Assembly (NCBI GenBank): GCA_002162955.1
Contig: MABD01000056.1
Coordinates: 62,001 to 126,000 of the forward strand
Reading direction: 5' to 3'
Length of the DNA stretch: 64,000 bases
Origin: Gammaproteobacteria bacterium 45_16_T64
Lineage (GTDB): Bacteria; Pseudomonadota; Gammaproteobacteria; Pseudomonadales; Ketobacteraceae
Position numbers and translations under genes: made by a program. The notes under the pieces are model-generated. The model was given only the letters and a program-made list of their open reading frames with translations. It searched no databases and was not told where the DNA came from. Shown one piece after another: positions 1-12,386 of the stretch; the stretch's first letter is position 1, and the number at the start of each line of letters is the position of its first letter.

Positions 1-619
1 CTTTTAATTTCAACTAATTGATTTATCTGCGATCTTTCTTTCGCTGCATTGCCAGTGATAATTACCCCATCTGTCTGGAAACCAAAATTTTCAGACAATA
101 AAAAAGCCCTCGCAGTCAGACTGGGAGAGCTTTCTTAGTGATTGGGCTTAATCATTTCACGTAAGCAGCATCTCTCCCAGCCAAATATGCATTGACTGTC
201 GGTGAATAACTGATGAATACGCGTTAATATTTTTCATGGGGCAATCATATAGATTTACAACAACACGTGTCAACTGAAAGCACCATGGATTTTCGTTAAG
301 ATTGGTTAGATGTAGAGATAGTTCGTTCCGGTATATAGGAATATTTTTATTACCTTAACCTATGACTTTTTTTCGTTTAATAAATAATTCATGACAATAA
401 AACGAGCAATCACCCAATATATTTCTATGGTTTTGAAAATACTGGAGCACTACTCTTGGCATTGAGAATAATTATGCTAAGCTATTCTCATATCACTGAG
501 GATATTTAGAAAACGTCACACTTAAGCGCATCACGTTATTCTTATTTATCAGAACTAACAATCATTTGACGCGCACGATTATGATCGGCAGATTAAGGCC
601 GAACAATACTCATATTTAA
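1..619. other. Left-edge region without a recognisable gene
   Basis: No convincing coding region is visible. A short minus-strand frame (about positions 98 to 1) is open to the window edge but begins only with TTG behind a terminator-like hairpin. It could be the start of a gene lying outside, or chance. An 8-bp inverted repeat TGAGAATA/TATTCTCA lies at 463-470 and 483-490. I infer no function for it. Confidence 0.4.
103..138. terminator. Bidirectional terminator-like hairpin
   Basis: AAAGCCCTC (103-111) pairs with GAGAGCTTT (125-133) with one mismatch, and an inner CAGT/ACTG helix extends it. On the minus strand it is followed by six Ts, on the plus strand by TTTCTT, so it could stop transcripts from either side. 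No gene that it obviously serves is in the window. Confidence 0.5.
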
Positions 620-648
620 CCCGGCTTCGAAAGACGCCGGGTTTTTTA
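620..648 (+). terminator. Strong plus-strand terminator, possibly of a small RNA
   Basis: CCCGGC (620-625) pairs with GCCGGG (636-641), followed by TTTTTTATT. This is a textbook intrinsic terminator reading rightward. There is no plus-strand gene upstream, so it may end a small RNA transcribed from about 480-560, or a transcript from further left. On the minus strand the T run is poor, so it is a weak candidate for ending the phosphoesterase gene next to it. Confidence 0.6.
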
Positions 649-703
649 TTGGTGTTTATAAATGCTAGTAAAATTATATAGTTATCATGCGAGTTGTCGG
701 TCA

Positions 704-1492
704 TCATAAGATAACGTGAGAGTTGGAATCTCTCTCTTTCCGTCCATTAATCTCAATACATTTGTAAGGATCATAATAGGGGTTCTCCTCACCAGGATAC
801 CCTTTCGGATTACAGTATACTTTGCAATTCCCCATATCGTACTCTGAACTATTGTGAAGATGCCCATGAATCCAATAATTCGGCTCCCGCATTGAGACCA
901 ACTCTGCCAAATCCGAAACATATGCGGACGTCGTAATATCCGTCCTCTTATTCACTGGCGCGGAATAAATGCTTGGAGCATGATGGCTAACCACAACATT
1001 GGTATCCCCGCTTAGAGCTTCGAGTGTTTTATCTAACCATCTTAGTGAATTCGCATGAATAATAGCAACATCTAGAGAGCGTAGTTTAGAATACCTGGGA
1101 GACTTACGGATTTTTTTATAGTCATTCATTACCTGCTGGCACTGATAACCCGCGATCCTCGGATCACCAAACAATTCAAAGTTCGTCCATAACGTACAAC
1201 CAATAAAGTTCACACCATCGATCTTGGCATGGTCATTTTCAAGTACATGAACATTGCTGCCTTGTGCTCTACTTTTTATTTCACCAATAAATTTTGGATG
1301 CGCCTTCCCGTAGTATTCGTGATTCCCCAATACATAAATTACAGGAATATTAGGGATATTCTCAGCGGCCCAAATTACACCTTTGTCCTTGGCATGAATA
1401 TCTCCTGCTAATACAACCACATCGGCATCGCAGGCAGGGTAGGTGTAATCTTCAAACTCGATGTGAAGATCACTTAATATATGTATTTTCAT
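704..1492 (-). CDS. Calcineurin-like metallophosphoesterase
   Basis: 262-residue protein of the calcineurin-like phosphoesterase family, a dinuclear-metal hydrolase of phosphomonoesters or phosphodiesters. The metal motifs occur in order: SDLH at residues 7-10, AGDIH near 30, LGNHE near 56, SHHAP near 170 and HGHLH near 211. There is no signal peptide, so it should be cytoplasmic. It is the last element on the minus strand after five tRNA genes and rtcB, about 70 nt beyond tRNA-His. That placement makes a 2',3'-cyclic or 3'-phosphate end-processing role on cleaved tRNA attractive, but this is inference; the substrate cannot be read from sequence. The start ATG has only a weak upstream purine stretch. 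Confidence 0.85.
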   Translation of the reverse strand: MKIHILSDLHIEFEDYTYPACDADVVVLAGDIHAKDKGVIWAAENIPNIPVIYVLGNHEYYGKAHPKFIGEIKSRAQGSNVHVLENDHAKIDGVNFIGCTLWTNFELFGDPRIAGYQCQQVMNDYKKIRKSPRYSKLRSLDVAIIHANSLRWLDKTLEALSGDTNVVVSHHAPSIYSAPVNKRTDITTSAYVSDLAELVSMREPNYWIHGHLHNSSEYDMGNCKVYCNPKGYPGEENPYYDPYKCIEINGRKERDSNSHVIL

Positions 1493-1562
1493 ATCTTAAC
1501 TCACTCTACGGTACTTACATACCGCGAGCCTAATTGTGATCTTCCATATGGATAGGAATAAA

Positions 1563-1639
1563 TGGGGTGAACGACGGGACTTGAACCCGCAACCGTCGGC
1601 ATCACAAGCCGAGAATCTACCAATTGATCTACGTCCACC
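1563..1639 (-). tRNA. tRNA-His (GTG)
   Basis: A full cloverleaf folds on the minus strand: acceptor GTGGACG/CGTTCAC, anticodon GTG (plus-strand complement at 1603-1605), T loop TTCAAGT and an encoded CCA. The extra G(-1) opposite C73, the histidine identity element, is present. The body differs from the usual gammaproteobacterial tRNA-His, which begins GTGGCTATAG, and looks phage-like. It is the fifth and last tRNA of the array. Confidence 0.95.
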
Positions 1640-1645
1640 ATAATA

Positions 1646-1723
1646 TGGCTGGCAGAGCAGGACTCGAACCTGCCTCCATCTCGGTTAACAGCCGAGTGCG
1701 CTCACCGGGAGTGCTATCTGCCA
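1646..1723 (-). tRNA. tRNA-Asn (GTT), divergent
   Basis: Acceptor TGGCAGA/TCTGCCA, anticodon stem CTCGG/CCGAG with anticodon GTT (complement at 1687-1689), T stem GCAGG/CCTGC and an encoded CCA. At 78 nt it has a long D loop, a D stem with an A:C mismatch and a T1:A72 acceptor end, quite unlike the standard chromosomal tRNA-Asn (TCCTCTGTAG...). It is likely a spare or decoy copy rather than the main tRNA-Asn. Only 6 nt separate it from tRNA-His. Confidence 0.92.
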
Positions 1724-1740
1724 AATTTTACTGGGTTAAT

Positions 1741-1814
1741 TGGAGCGGGATAAGGGAATTGAACCCTTGTAGGTAGCTTGGAAGGCTACTGCACGACCAC
1801 TATGCCAATCCCGC
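1741..1814 (-). tRNA. tRNA-Gly (TCC)
   Basis: Acceptor GCGGGAT/ATCCCGC, anticodon stem GTAGC/GCTAC with anticodon TCC (complement at 1780-1782), T loop TTCAATT and encoded CCA. It is a normal 74-nt tRNA shape, but its D arm and T arm differ from the usual tRNA-Gly(TCC). It lies third in the array, after a 103-nt spacer that carries a mini-ORF. Confidence 0.95.
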
Positions 1815-1833
1815 GCTGTACTTTTTGTTACTC

Positions 1834-1884
1834 TCAATTATTTGAGAGTATGGCTATACCATCAATGTCATCTTGATAACTCAT
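1834..1884 (-). CDS. Possible 16-codon mini-ORF inside the tRNA array
   Basis: In the spacer between tRNA-Lys and tRNA-Gly a minus-strand ATG follows a strong ribosome-binding site, AAGGAG, six nt upstream (plus complement 1891-1896). The frame encodes 16 residues (MSYQDDIDGIAILSNN) and then TGA. Its 3' end runs into a perfect 9-bp hairpin (1829-1837 / 1842-1850) with no T run. A Shine-Dalgarno of this quality inside a tRNA operon is unusual. It could be a translated minigene, a ribosome-loading site that affects RNA processing, or chance. I know of no homologue. Confidence 0.35.
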   Translation of the reverse strand: MSYQDDIDGIAILSNN

Positions 1885-1917
1885 GACGTTCTCCTTAAAA
1901 CAAATATCTATGTTAAC

Positions 1918-1993
1918 TGGTGCGCCCAGAAGGACTTGAACCTTCAACCACCCGATTAAAAGTCGGATGCTCTACCCATTGAGCTATAAGCGC
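1918..1993 (-). tRNA. tRNA-Lys (TTT)
   Basis: Acceptor GCGCTTA/TGGGCGC, D arm AGCTC...GAGC, anticodon TTT (complement at 1958-1960), T arm GAAGG TTCAAGT CCTTC and encoded CCA. The body differs from the common GGGTCGTTAG tRNA-Lys and resembles phage-borne tRNA-Lys. tRNA-Lys(UUU) is the established target of the anticodon nuclease PrrC, which is relevant given rtcB upstream. Confidence 0.95.
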
Positions 1994-2014
1994 ATAAACT
2001 CTCCCATCAAATGA

Positions 2015-2091
2015 TGGAGTACCGAGTCAGATTCGAACTGACGAACAATGGATTTGCAATCCACCCCTTTAGACCACTCAGGCATCGGTAC
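2015..2091 (-). tRNA. tRNA-Cys (GCA)
   Basis: Acceptor GTACCGA/TCGGTAC, anticodon stem GTGGA/TCCAT with anticodon GCA (complement at 2055-2057), T loop TTCGAAT and encoded CCA. The sequence is unlike the standard tRNA-Cys (GGCGCGTTAA...). It is the first tRNA of the array, starting about 36 nt after the T run of the leader terminator, so its transcription depends on readthrough of that terminator or on a promoter not seen here. Confidence 0.95.
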
Positions 2092-2126
2092 GTATTATTT
2101 TTAAACCACGTCACTTTTCATGAGGC

Positions 2127-2165
2127 AATAAAAAACCCCGGAAGGTTTTAGCCTTCCGGGGTTTT
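2127..2165 (-). terminator. Attenuator-like terminator in front of the tRNA array
   Basis: On the minus strand AAAACCCCGGAAGG (complement of 2152-2165) pairs with CCTTCCGGGGTTTT (complement of 2132-2145) around a 6-nt loop, followed by TTATTG. With its GC-rich stem and run of Ts it is a strong intrinsic terminator. It sits between the leader ORF and tRNA-Cys, so it controls entry into the tRNA genes. Its 5' arm contains GGAAGGC, which can alternatively pair with GCCTTCC of the preceding hairpin. Confidence 0.8.
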
Positions 2166-2189
2166 AGCATTTACTGCTGACCCTGTAAT

Positions 2190-2209
2190 GGAAGGCTGTA
2201 TCGCCTTCC
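2190..2209 (-). promoter_or_regulatory. Upstream hairpin competing with the terminator
   Basis: GGAAGGC (complement of 2203-2209) pairs with GCCTTCC (complement of 2190-2196) over a 6-nt loop, and an outer TGACC/GGTCA helix can extend it. The GCCTTCC arm is also exactly complementary to GGAAGGC (complement of 2151-2157) in the 5' arm of the terminator. The 1:2 and 3:4 pairing versus 2:3 pairing of classical attenuators is therefore available. The pairing is seen in sequence; the regulation is inferred. Confidence 0.55.
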
Positions 2210-2224
2210 CTTTCGGTCAAGCGA

Positions 2225-2356
2225 TTAGCTGAGGAGGTTCTTCCCCACAACATTATTTCTATGATTATTCTTGGCACAACACACAGACAATACGGAACAA
2301 CAACGCATACGCGCCGAAGTCTTCGTTTCTGTCTTATGCCAATGAATGGAAATCAT
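2225..2356 (-). CDS. Putative leader peptide of the tRNA array
   Basis: 43-codon ORF with GGAG six nt before its ATG (plus complement of GGAG at 2363-2366). The peptide has 4 Cys (two CC pairs at 19-20 and 26-27), 5 Asn (30, 31, 34, 35, 40), 4 Lys (8, 12, 29, 39), 3 His (5, 7, 32) and 1 Gly. So 17 of 43 residues belong to the five amino acids whose tRNAs follow, with Cys, Asn and His far above normal frequency. It ends about 60 nt before a strong terminator. This is the layout of an amino-acid leader peptide in ribosome-mediated attenuation. It is too short for homology to help, and translation is not proven. Confidence 0.6.
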   Translation of the reverse strand: MISIHWHKTETKTSARMRCCSVLSVCCAKNNHRNNVVGKNLLS

Positions 2357-2397
2357 GTGTTGCTCCAAATAATGTGTATCAGTAATCAATGTGGGTA

Positions 2398-2425
2398 ATT
2401 AAAACATACTTCCTGAAAAAGCCAA
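2398..2425 (-). promoter_or_regulatory. Candidate promoter of the leader/tRNA unit
   Basis: On the minus strand TTGGCT (complement of 2420-2425) and TTTAAT (complement of 2398-2403) are spaced by 16 nt. Initiation would fall near 2390, giving a leader of roughly 35 nt before the leader ORF. If real, the tRNA array is transcribed independently of rtcB, which ends at 2491. The -35 match is moderate. Confidence 0.4.
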
Positions 2426-2490
2426 GCGTTGTTTTGTTATTTTTGAAAATTAATTTTATTAATTTCAAATGCTTTAGTGATCATTTCTTA

Positions 2491-3915
2491 TCATCCTTTA
2501 AACGTTAGTAGCGGTTTCATCTTCGCTACCGGACTCACAATACCATTCTGAACCTGGACATCCACTACCGCATCAATATCCTTGTATGCAATCGGCGCCT
2601 CTTCAATCCGACGATCTTCTTTAAGGGTGATGCAGTCAACGCAAGTAAGTCCTAAATCCTTTCCATTGCGATTCAGCCGATACATTTCATGCCGTGGTTT
2701 TGCTCGACCAGCGCCGTGTGAGGCAGAACACAAAAAATTTTGATTACCTAACCCCATCATCAGATAGGACGAATGCCCCATTGATCCAGGAATAAGCACC
2801 GGCTGCCCTTCATGTGCAGGCGTTGCTCCCTTACGGTGAATAAAACAGTCATGCTCCTGCGTCACGATATTATGAGGCCCATCAAAAACCAATGGCATTT
2901 CAACATCGCTGCCAAATACCTCTCGCATACGCCGACGTACAATTTCCGCCAACAATAAACGATTCAGATTCGCGTAATTTGCCGCCGTATTCATTGCCGT
3001 AAGATAGTCACGCGCCAAATCCCCGTACAAAGGAAAAATACCGCTTTTAGGGTATCGCTCCCCACCGGGCCAAGCGCTTTTGGCTTTATCATTCCAGTAG
3101 TTACCCACGTGTTGACCCACCGCCCTTGAACCCGTATGGATCATTATCGACAGCTGACCTTTACGCAACCCCCAGTTAAACGCCTGCTTTCTATCACTAA
3201 TTTCATCAAGCGTTTGGAACTCCACGAAATGATTACCCCCACCAATGGTTGCCAGAGACGCATCACGGATATGGCTACGCTTCTCCGAAAGCAGACTCTC
3301 TGGTGCCCATTTACTATCACCGGATTCGCTGCCGCACTCAAAGACACGTTCCAATTCGCTTTCTAACTGATTAAAATCAGCCGATTGCAAATCACCCAGT
3401 GGGTGTTTTTTCATTTCATCGACCCATCCCAGCAATCCATGCTGAAACAACCCGTTAAAACAGGAGGGTGTCATTGGTAAGTCACGACTGCCGAGTAACA
3501 AATCCCCCCTCAACTTTTCCACTAACAGCGTTTTTTTCCTGTGCCAATGATCCATATCGATATCGGCGACATGCAGGCGCATACCGCAATGAATATCGGT
3601 ACCGATGGCTTGAGGAAGAATAAAGTTCGTGGTCGTCGACACCACTGCACCCACTGGCACAACCGATCCTGCGTGAAAATCTGGCGTTGCCCTAGCGGCA
3701 TTCACCATGCCACCGTGTGGATGATACACACCCGCAAATGCCACCAATTGCTTTAACGCTTTGTTATCTAAATCAAAATGCTCAGGCAATAGAATTTGTA
3801 CCGATGGAAAATCATCGACATTATTTTTGCTAACGCTATAGATACCGTTATTCTTACTAACGGTTAGACCTTGTTTATATAAAGCTTTTATAAGACGTGT
3901 GAGTGAAGTACTCAT
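2491..3915 (-). CDS. rtcB: RtcB-type RNA ligase
   Basis: RtcB joins RNA 2',3'-cyclic or 3'-phosphate ends to 5'-OH ends, using GTP and Mn2+, and repairs tRNAs cut in the anticodon loop. The core motifs are visible: GTDIHCGM with the metal-binding Asp and Cys, GGGNHF, an IHTGSR histidine, DGPHN, PGSMG and SASHGAGR with the guanylated-histidine region. I chose the internal ATG (complement 3913-3915) because GGAG lies 8 nt upstream of it; a GTG 14 codons earlier is the alternative. That gives 474 residues, longer than E. coli RtcB (408). No rtcA, rsr or prfH is adjacent. Instead the next elements on the strand are a leader ORF, five unusual tRNAs and a phosphoesterase, pointing to tRNA repair and replacement. 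Confidence 0.93.
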   Translation of the reverse strand: MSTSLTRLIKALYKQGLTVSKNNGIYSVSKNNVDDFPSVQILLPEHFDLDNKALKQLVAFAGVYHPHGGMVNAARATPDFHAGSVVPVGAVVSTTTNFILPQAIGTDIHCGMRLHVADIDMDHWHRKKTLLVEKLRGDLLLGSRDLPMTPSCFNGLFQHGLLGWVDEMKKHPLGDLQSADFNQLESELERVFECGSESGDSKWAPESLLSEKRSHIRDASLATIGGGNHFVEFQTLDEISDRKQAFNWGLRKGQLSIMIHTGSRAVGQHVGNYWNDKAKSAWPGGERYPKSGIFPLYGDLARDYLTAMNTAANYANLNRLLLAEIVRRRMREVFGSDVEMPLVFDGPHNIVTQEHDCFIHRKGATPAHEGQPVLIPGSMGHSSYLMMGLGNQNFLCSASHGAGRAKPRHEMYRLNRNGKDLGLTCVDCITLKEDRRIEEAPIAYKDIDAVVDVQVQNGIVSPVAKMKPLLTFKG

Positions 3916-4076
3916 TGCTGTCTCCAGTGCTCGAAGTGCCTCCTTTGGAGAAGACACAAAAAAATCCCACTCAATGAGGAGCGGTATTCGAGCAAGATTC
4001 AGCAGCCAGATAGGACATCTTGCGATTTGGTCGCGGACTATATAGTAGTTTACTCAGTGATTCAAACAATTTGTCA

Positions 4077-4102
4077 TTAGGGGAGTCACCTAACTCCCCT
4101 AA
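4077..4102 (-). terminator. Hairpin just after rhlE
   Basis: A perfect 9-bp inverted repeat TTAGGGGAG (4077-4085) / CTCCCCTAA (4094-4102) begins 7 nt beyond the rhlE stop. No clear T run follows on the minus strand, so it may act as a 3'-end stabilising hairpin or as a weak terminator. Confidence 0.5.
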
Positions 4103-4108
4103 TACGGT

Positions 4109-5449
4109 TTACTTCTTACGGTTTCGAAGCCAGGGATTATCAGCATCGGATTTAGCCGCAGAAGAACTTTCCGAAGATTTCTGCGGGCGATTAGTAGGCT
4201 TACTCCCTGCCTTTGCCCCCTTCGCTTTCGCTCGACTCTTATCCTGCTTGCCTTCTGACGGCTTCCGCGTCACGGCTCCCTTGCTGACAAAATTCAGATT
4301 AGAGACCGGCAATTCTTTTTTGGTAATAAACCCTTCGATATTTTTACGCTCAATAATCTGATCCAGACGGCGCTCAATCGCGCACAGTCGCTTGAAATCA
4401 TCCATAGAGACCAAGGACACCGCTTCACCGCAAGCCCCCGCTCGACCGGTTCGACCAATCCGGTGGATGTAATCATCCGCATCATCGGGTAGATCATAGT
4501 TGACCACACGGGTAAGTTCGTCGATATCAATACCTCGCGCGGCAATACCGGTGGCCACCAACAGACCAATTTTACCCGATTTAAAATCGGCGAGTATTTG
4601 CGTGCGGACGGCTTGGCTTCGACCACTATGAATTGACTCAGCGTTGATACCGCGCTTTTCGAGTTGGCCAACTAATTTCGCAGCACCGTGCTTGGTGCGA
4701 ATAAAAATAAGCGCTTGCGTCCATTCATGTTCTTTAATCAGGTGACTCAGCAGAGTCGACTTATTGTCCTTATCAACCGAAACTACCCACTGAGATATCT
4801 GTGGTGTTGATTCGCGATTATCCTCAATCGACACTTCGACGGGGTTATCGATCGCCCTCTCTGCTAATGACCGTACGCCCTCTGGCATCGTCGCGGAAAA
4901 CAACAGGTTCTGCCTGTGCTCAGGTAAGCGATCAATAATTTTATTGATATCACCAATAAACCCCATATCGAGCATTCTATCGGCCTCATCCAAGACCAAC
5001 ACTTCCAACTCATCAAAATGCAACGCTCGTTGATGAACCATGTCCAGCAATCGACCGGGAGTAGCAACGAGAATATCGATGCCATCGATCAACTGCTGTT
5101 TCTGCGGCTCCGAATCAACCCCACCATACATCGCCATCGATATCACATTCAGGTGCTTACCATACTGGACGATACTGGCCTCAACCTGTATCGCTAATTC
5201 ACGGGTAGGCACAAGGATCAGGGCACGCAGGCGTTTAGCGCGACGTTTACGCTCACCACTAAGGCGTTCCAAAATCGGCAACACAAAGCCCGCGGTTTTT
5301 CCCGTTCCCGTCTGAGCGGTAGCAATAAGATCCCTGCCCGACAAAATCGCTGGAATCGCCTTCTCTTGAATAGCCGTTGGGGTTTCATACCCCAACTCAC
5401 TAACGGCATCTAGAATAGGGGTACTTAAATTAAGTTTGGCGAATGTCAT
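4109..5449 (-). CDS. rhlE: DEAD-box RNA helicase, RhlE-like
   Basis: ATP-dependent RNA helicase of 446 residues. All DEAD-box motifs are present in order: Q motif (ETPTAIQEKAIP), AQTGTGKT, PTRELA, TPGRL, DEAD, SAT, a GIDI-containing motif V and HRIGRTGRAG. The C-terminal 80 residues are Lys/Arg/Ser-rich and low-complexity, typical of RhlE-type RNA-binding tails. Such helicases act in ribosome assembly and RNA turnover. It is transcribed toward rtcB, but about 190 nt and a hairpin lie between them, so an operon is not clear. Confidence 0.92.
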   Translation of the reverse strand: MTFAKLNLSTPILDAVSELGYETPTAIQEKAIPAILSGRDLIATAQTGTGKTAGFVLPILERLSGERKRRAKRLRALILVPTRELAIQVEASIVQYGKHLNVISMAMYGGVDSEPQKQQLIDGIDILVATPGRLLDMVHQRALHFDELEVLVLDEADRMLDMGFIGDINKIIDRLPEHRQNLLFSATMPEGVRSLAERAIDNPVEVSIEDNRESTPQISQWVVSVDKDNKSTLLSHLIKEHEWTQALIFIRTKHGAAKLVGQLEKRGINAESIHSGRSQAVRTQILADFKSGKIGLLVATGIAARGIDIDELTRVVNYDLPDDADDYIHRIGRTGRAGACGEAVSLVSMDDFKRLCAIERRLDQIIERKNIEGFITKKELPVSNLNFVSKGAVTRKPSEGKQDKSRAKAKGAKAGSKPTNRPQKSSESSSAAKSDADNPWLRNRKK

Positions 5450-12306: not shown

Positions 12307-12319
12307 AAAAACAACGACA

Positions 12320-12383
12320 TATCTAAGGTTGATTGGTGTAAGAGCTTGCAGTAACAAGTTCTTGCACCAATCAATCTTAGATA
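12320..12383. terminator. Long bidirectional terminator
   Basis: TATCTAAG (12320-12327) pairs with CTTAGATA (12376-12383) and the whole interval folds into one imperfect stem of about 28 bp with a 6-nt loop. T-rich tracts flank it on both strands (CTTTTAATTTTT rightward, GTTTTTTT leftward). It separates the convergent membrane protein and histidine kinase genes. Confidence 0.85.
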
Positions 12384-12386
12384 CTT

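Follow-up and report, generated by a model that had tools for sequence, protein, structure and literature searches.

In the marine Gammaproteobacteria bacterium 45_16_T64, an array of five tRNA genes (array 1) probably lies behind a ribosome-sensed attenuator of the his type, and the same logic appears to govern an RNA ligase/HD-Pnk operon, a PNK-Thg1 operon and a second tRNA array, which together look like a tRNA-damage regulon. Array 1 is situated in a stretch of 64,000 nucleotides (MABD01000056.1, 62,001-126,000; hereafter the window) of the genome coded G000. That tRNA arrays and RNA-repair operons are under leader-peptide attenuation is well supported by comparative sequence analysis; the anatomy of the loci, its conservation, mutually exclusive predicted folds and a codon bias can all be read from the genomes. 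Every element that the first-pass annotation of this DNA had listed, i.e. five tRNAs, leader ORF, hairpin and terminator, was found on the minus strand, together with the neighbouring features:

2491..3957, minus strand: rtcB (RNA ligase; PF01139, 8e-96), upstream of the array in the own genome only
2397..2425, minus strand: promoter-like pair TTGGCT-17-TTAATT of the array-1 transcript, hexamers weak, kept in every copy
2225..2356, minus strand: leader ORF of 43 codons (MISIHWHKTETKTSARMRCCSVLSVCCAKNNHRNNVVGKNLLS, then stop), frame and length the same in G003 and G001
2219..2225, minus strand: segment R0 (AUCGCUU), shares its first base with the end of the stop codon and pairs with R1
2200..2209, minus strand: R1 (GGAAGGCGAU), 5' arm of the first hairpin or partner of R0
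2190..2196, minus strand: R2 (GCCUUCC), 3' arm of the first hairpin or antiterminator strand
2151..2157, minus strand: R3 (GGAAGGC), 5' arm of the terminator or antiterminator partner of R2
2129..2162, minus strand: intrinsic terminator 5' of array 1, ACCCCGGAAGGC-TAAAA-CCTTCCGGGGT plus T-run
2015..2091, minus strand: tRNA-Cys(GCA), in the own genome, missing from the congeners' arrays
1918..1993, minus strand: tRNA-Lys(TTT), leads the array in the congeners
1834..1884, minus strand: 16-codon ORF MSYQDDIDGIAILSNN with AAGGAG, located in the tRNA operon after Lys and before Gly, four copies
1741..1814, minus strand: tRNA-Gly(TCC)
1646..1723, minus strand: tRNA-Asn(GTT)
1563..1638, minus strand: tRNA-His(GTG)
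704..1492, minus strand: metallophosphoesterase (PF00149), between array 1 and the PNK-Thg1 operon

The own genome possesses 45 tRNA genes, among them housekeeping versions of all array-1 species, from which the array copies differ by 18-34%. That each array tRNA has housekeeping copies elsewhere counts in favor of the attenuator reading. The promoter-like pair (2425-2397) was not listed by a consensus promoter scanner; as noticed in the first-pass annotation, it is nevertheless present, and it is conserved in the congeners though its hexamers are weak, including in a divergent copy before a ligase operon (see below). The leader region has a much more stable predicted RNA fold than shuffled sequences (z = -6.8). 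The array-1 terminator was missed by the consensus scan because its stem reaches into the T-run, and as real terminators with such stems were overlooked, the promoter/terminator consensus scan was discarded as a detector. The 16-codon ORF (1884-1834, minus strand) encodes the peptide M[ST]YQDDIDGIAILSNN behind a good ribosome-binding site, and nearly all changes among its four copies are synonymous.

When 97 related genomes were searched at the DNA level, the same element appeared in three congeners. In G003 (contig C39, locus L021) and G001 (C55, L023), promoter, leader, hairpin and terminator stand directly before tRNA-Lys, which in G003 is followed by Gly, Asn, Thr and His, a polynucleotide-kinase-like protein and Thg1; degenerate copies occur in G003 (C103, L022) and G002 (C4, L025). 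Compared with the congener arrays, tRNA-Cys is an insertion confined to the own genome. The last terminator T and mature tRNA-Lys are separated by 21 nt in G003 and G001, which leaves room for no independent promoter, and therefore expression of the array would need readthrough. The rtcB gene, which had been taken as part of one locus with the tRNAs, does not adjoin the congener copies and was not found in the 27 relatives searched; its adjacency is thus incidental, and rtcB was dismissed as an integral part of the array-1 system. In the window, rtcB is preceded by a small upstream ORF of its own (MSYLAAESCSNTAPH; 4018-3921, minus strand) that overlaps a terminator-like hairpin, after which follows a stem around the ribosome-binding site. 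Among the matches of the covariance model R1 in 392 genomes of the order, those in the congeners were the only real copies, all others being generic terminators. No attenuator pattern was found in viral contigs.

The first hairpin (GGAAGGC/GCCTTCC, 2209-2190) lies 15 nt 3' of the leader stop, and the terminator 5' arm (terminator at 2162-2129) contains GGAAGGC as well. The R0 sequence UAAUCGCUU pairs with AAGGCGAU (R1) and does not vary among five of the six copies, the sixth reading UGAUCGCUU. The alternatives form a chain, R0:R1, R1:R2, R2:R3 and R3:R4, and hence a five-segment switch like that of the his operon leader. The first-pass annotation had cautioned that the stall geometry may differ from the trp type; this caveat is resolved by R0, a segment at the stop codon overlooked before, which makes the switch his-type. 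Constrained folding was carried out on the transcript up to R3 with R0 either covered or free. With R0 free of the ribosome, R0:R1 and R2:R3 (the antiterminator) were predicted, while a covered R0 gave R1:R2 and then the terminator. For a modelled ribosome on the window leader, all stalls up to Asn40 led to the antiterminator and positions from codon 41 to the stop to the terminator; G003 exhibited the same 40/41 switch except at one position (codon 10). In two array-1 orthologs the folding model thus predicts mutually exclusive folds that are switched by ribosome position, which bears out the exclusive GCCTTCC/GGAAGGC pairing proposed earlier. Three observations limit this result. Equilibrium folding gave no switch with ribosome position in the ligase-operon copy or in array 2, which counts against the attenuator reading. 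When R0 of array 1 was shuffled, the antiterminator was still obtained in 18-32% of the shuffles, and therefore the R0 pairing alone is modest evidence. Finally, the alternative pairs are kept in all intact copies, as had been anticipated for relatives, but the covariation expected along with this is mostly absent, the pairs being invariant, which was likewise counted against.

The leader ORF (2356-2225) starts with ATG, with GGAG located 8 nt 5' of it, and ends with TAA. Its residues include 4 Cys, 5 Asn, 4 Lys, 3 His and 1 Gly, which reproduces the 17/43 of the first-pass annotation, and this match by itself is only moderately unusual. Own-array residues make up 40.5% compared to 20.6% in the null, a level reached by 5 of 482 random ORFs from the same genome; in an amino-acid-set permutation, 0.25% of random sets of the same size matched as well (0.0025). 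In the leader of the G003 array the own-array residues are only weakly enriched (37 of 482 ORFs reach this level, P = 0.054), which we count against the attenuator reading. The intact array-1 leaders come from three closely related genomes only (own genome, G003 and G001), which is a point against; the predicted ORFs are identical in length, codons 17-43 (RCC.VLSVCCAKNNHRNNVVG.N.LS) are conserved and codons 2-16 drift. Frame, length and the Cys/Lys/Asn/His-rich C-terminal half are hence all retained in relatives. This conservation of the leader frame, together with the kept pairings, supports the core claim that the array may be controlled by leader-peptide attenuation. Across all loci, the control codons fit the regulated product clearly for array 2 and PNK-Thg1, moderately for array 1 and weakly for the G003 array.

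A second putative attenuator lies at the left edge of the window, ahead of a PNK-Thg1 operon that starts just outside it (about G000:C48:61985 down to 60755):

244..273, minus strand: promoter TTGACA-18-TATGAT, 11/12 consensus matches
157..237, minus strand: second leader ORF of the window (MKNINAYSSVIHRQSMHIWLGEMLLT, then stop); its relatives in G112, G139 and G689 occupy the equivalent position
172..182, minus strand: antiterminator strand GGCUGGGAGAG within this ORF, which complements CUCUCCCAG, the 5' arm of the terminator
100..133, minus strand: terminator of the second attenuator

The counterparts of this leader are MLNFNAHSAHIYLQSNHYWLGGLL (G112), MINLTILSINNYHHSHSICAERVGVYVI (G139) and MRKNQSHMIHQYHQANHIWLGALLLV (G689), the last of which stands before a HisRS-like gene, PNK and Thg1. 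The product of that gene (L174, minus strand) is a short HisRS-like protein (PF13393) encoded between the His-rich leader and PNK-Thg1. Pooling the four loci, which come from three families and provide 100 residues, gave 12/100 His compared to 3% (P = 6e-5) and 28/100 Asn, His and Tyr together compared to 10.5% (P = 1e-6). The window's own leader has the weakest residue bias of the four, and the His/Asn/Tyr richness is seen in the other families. The L167 leader gave weak matches to Rfam Thr_leader and trpB. No leader was visible upstream of the PNK-Thg1 operons of G198, G874, G789 and G875.

The own genome also contains a second accessory array, which is not homologous to array 1 and is divergent to rtcR (PF06956):

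G000:C57, L230 6286-7616: array 2, tRNA-Ser-GCT, Ile-GAT, Leu-TAG, Pro-TGG, Trp-CCA and Gln-TTG

It is preceded by a sigma-54 site, a leader ORF, a hairpin and a terminator. The leader (MSFDLLLSQTQQRTSNEGVQQGQPLLLSPWSWLCSIKSNQPNSKIKRPPPH) consists of S, I, L, P, W and Q to 64%, compared to 38.5% in 482 random ORFs, three of which were as high, and the amino-acid-set permutation gave 0.00075. Cross-tests in which the residue sets of arrays 1 and 2 were exchanged were negative. As the hypothesis was drawn from array 1, array 2 represents a prediction that held. The leader also gave a weak match to His_leader. No clear ribosome-binding site was seen ahead of its ATG. None of 96 relatives has a full homolog of array 2, which is counted against the attenuator reading. 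Inside array 2, a GOLLD RNA (L230:6767-7230 on C57, 180.7 bits), perhaps of phage origin, embeds the tRNA-Ile. On five plasmids, no tRNA arrays adjoin RtcR.

These biases bear on the strongest competing explanation, according to which the leaders are sensors of general translation stress: any slow-down in the leader, be it by antibiotics, ribosome damage or starvation, would lead to readthrough, and the match between codons and tRNAs would be incidental. In line with this, the model gives the antiterminator for stalls at nearly any codon before 41, the composition match of array 1 is moderate, and a tRNA array and rtcB of Anabaena respond to general translational stress (PMC10272220). However, the leaders of array 2 and PNK-Thg1 are clearly biased to their cognate residues, and leader 1 keeps its C-terminal control region but varies in its N-terminal half. 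We consider a general sensor unlikely compared to attenuation controlled by the cognate tRNAs.

In G003 and G001, a divergent second copy of promoter, leader (MNRVQSYKAKTDNTQTFRCQVSFVCCSSSIS), segments R0-R4 and terminator precedes genes for an RNA ligase (PF09414) and an HD plus kinase protein (HD-Pnk). Parts of the array-1 peptide recur in the leaders of the ligase operons (RCQVSFVCCSSS) and at L043 (CVLSLVKFCSSD), and what is conserved in the array-1 leader is the peptide sequence, beyond mere composition. Both observations would fit a nascent peptide that acts from within the tunnel, RCC.VLSVCCAKNNHRNNVVG stalling the ribosome on a ligand or damage as TnaC does. We regard such an arrest peptide as very unlikely, as the motif is not common to the array-2 and Thg1 leaders, and neither the his-type geometry nor the codon bias of unrelated leaders requires one.

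Different arrangements were observed at other ligase/HD-Pnk operons. The leader of this operon in the own genome (L043:5279-5440, contig C7) is another one, MIFRYLTMCVLSLVKFCSSD with AAGGAGG, and behind it a hairpin sequesters the ribosome-binding site of the ligase, an arrangement that looks like translational attenuation. An AUGUAA/AUGUAG start-stop element occurs before 29 of 34 gammaproteobacterial ligase/HD-Pnk operons (L050-L127), compared to 5.3 expected from shuffles, at a distance of 75-203 nt and mostly 95-135 nt upstream. It often opens the 5' strand of a stem in which the ribosome-binding site of the ligase is hidden, as in AUGUAAUUCC...GGAGUUACAU, and is a possible one-codon uORF switch.

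Scanning Rfam at relaxed thresholds gave a full-length match to His_leader (RF00514) at window positions 2227-2127 (36.3 bits, E = 0.0024), and both copies in each of G003 and G001 reached 39.8-46.0 bits. At the five intact copies searched, His_leader was the top-scoring non-tRNA bacterial family, with 36.3, 40.2, 39.8, 46.0 and 44.1 bits; none reaches the gathering score of 49 bits, and the scores therefore indicate likeness in architecture, not membership. The genes behind these copies are tRNA genes or RNA ligase, not the histidine biosynthesis genes expected for RF00514. There was no further His_leader match across roughly 43 kb of these loci, no leader family in the 59.8 kb that make up the rest of the window (about 103 kb in all), and no match to the T-box covariance model in window positions 1-4200 at E up to 1. 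A sub-threshold match to animal mir-29 (12317-12386, plus strand, 35.8 bits) is surely a chance hairpin. A weak promoter-like site between terminator and tRNA-Cys (2121-2094) counts against the attenuator reading and would suit an ordinary terminator of an unrelated small transcript, with array 1 having its own promoter and the ORF being fortuitous; given the His_leader matches, the mere 21 nt that separate terminator and tRNA-Lys in two congeners, and a leader frame and alternating segments that are conserved and duplicated before a repair operon, this is most improbable.

For the his-type attenuator, we propose the following sequence of events. When the leader is translated to its end, the ribosome would cover R0, so that the R1:R2 hairpin and then the terminator form and array 1 stays off. 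If charged Cys, Lys, Asn or His tRNA is short, the ribosome would stall at or before codon 40, R0:R1 and R2:R3 would form and the terminator would be blocked; RNA polymerase could then enter the redundant tRNA genes and supply the missing species. The same logic may apply to RNA ligase/HD-Pnk in the congeners, to the PNK-Thg1 operon with its His/Asn/Tyr leader and to array 2 with its Ser/Ile/Leu/Pro/Trp/Gln leader, and the four together look like a tRNA-damage regulon. We infer stalling and readthrough, and likewise tRNA cleavage as the natural trigger. Colicin E5-type nucleases cleave Asn, His, Tyr and Asp tRNAs and PrrC-type nucleases cleave Lys tRNA, and either type of cleavage is a candidate trigger. 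The placement of back-up tRNA and RNA-repair genes behind such leaders and terminators suggests that the cell detects the loss of particular tRNAs by ribosome stalling and responds by producing replacements and repair enzymes. The chances appear evenly balanced for the more specific proposal of at least four attenuators, each with a leader written in codons of the tRNAs or repair substrates that its operon restores, such that loss of a tRNA would directly trigger its own replacement and repair. If true, the ribosome reads tRNA loss directly and the cell responds specifically to whichever tRNA is missing, the default silence of back-up tRNA arrays is explained, and it becomes testable which anticodon nucleases the repair and replacement modules counter.

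We know of no bacterial tRNA operon under leader-peptide attenuation, and no paper on such control was found in the open-access full text. The his operon attenuator (RF00514) likewise has a short leader ORF with codons for the relevant residue, RNA segments that alternate in their pairing and a terminator ahead of the first gene. Unlike it, the array-1 system would control tRNA genes and RNA repair instead of amino-acid synthesis, and the leaders here have several control residues where the his leader has one. In the RNA repair operon rsr-yrlBA-rtcBA under RtcR and sigma-54, tRNA fragments are sensed by a protein (PMC7790460). Induction tied to damaged tRNA and RNA repair genes are shared with that system, and array 2 is divergent to rtcR with a sigma-54 site; however, no leader or attenuation is mentioned there, and the window has no sigma-54 site. 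The Anabaena trn operon of 26 tRNA genes, which like rtcB is repressed by TrcR (PMC10272220), is similarly an accessory tRNA array that is off by default, induced by translational stress and co-regulated with rtcB, but it depends on a ribbon-helix-helix repressor and attenuation is not mentioned. Gene neighbourhoods of Thg1 and polynucleotide kinase are known (PMC2904730) and resemble the PNK-Thg1 operon left of the window, L021, L166-L169 and L174; in contrast to the present loci, leader-peptide control is not mentioned in the passages considered there. As far as the open-access literature shows, his-type attenuation is thus a known mechanism, whereas tRNA arrays, RNA ligase/kinase and Thg1 are new targets of it.
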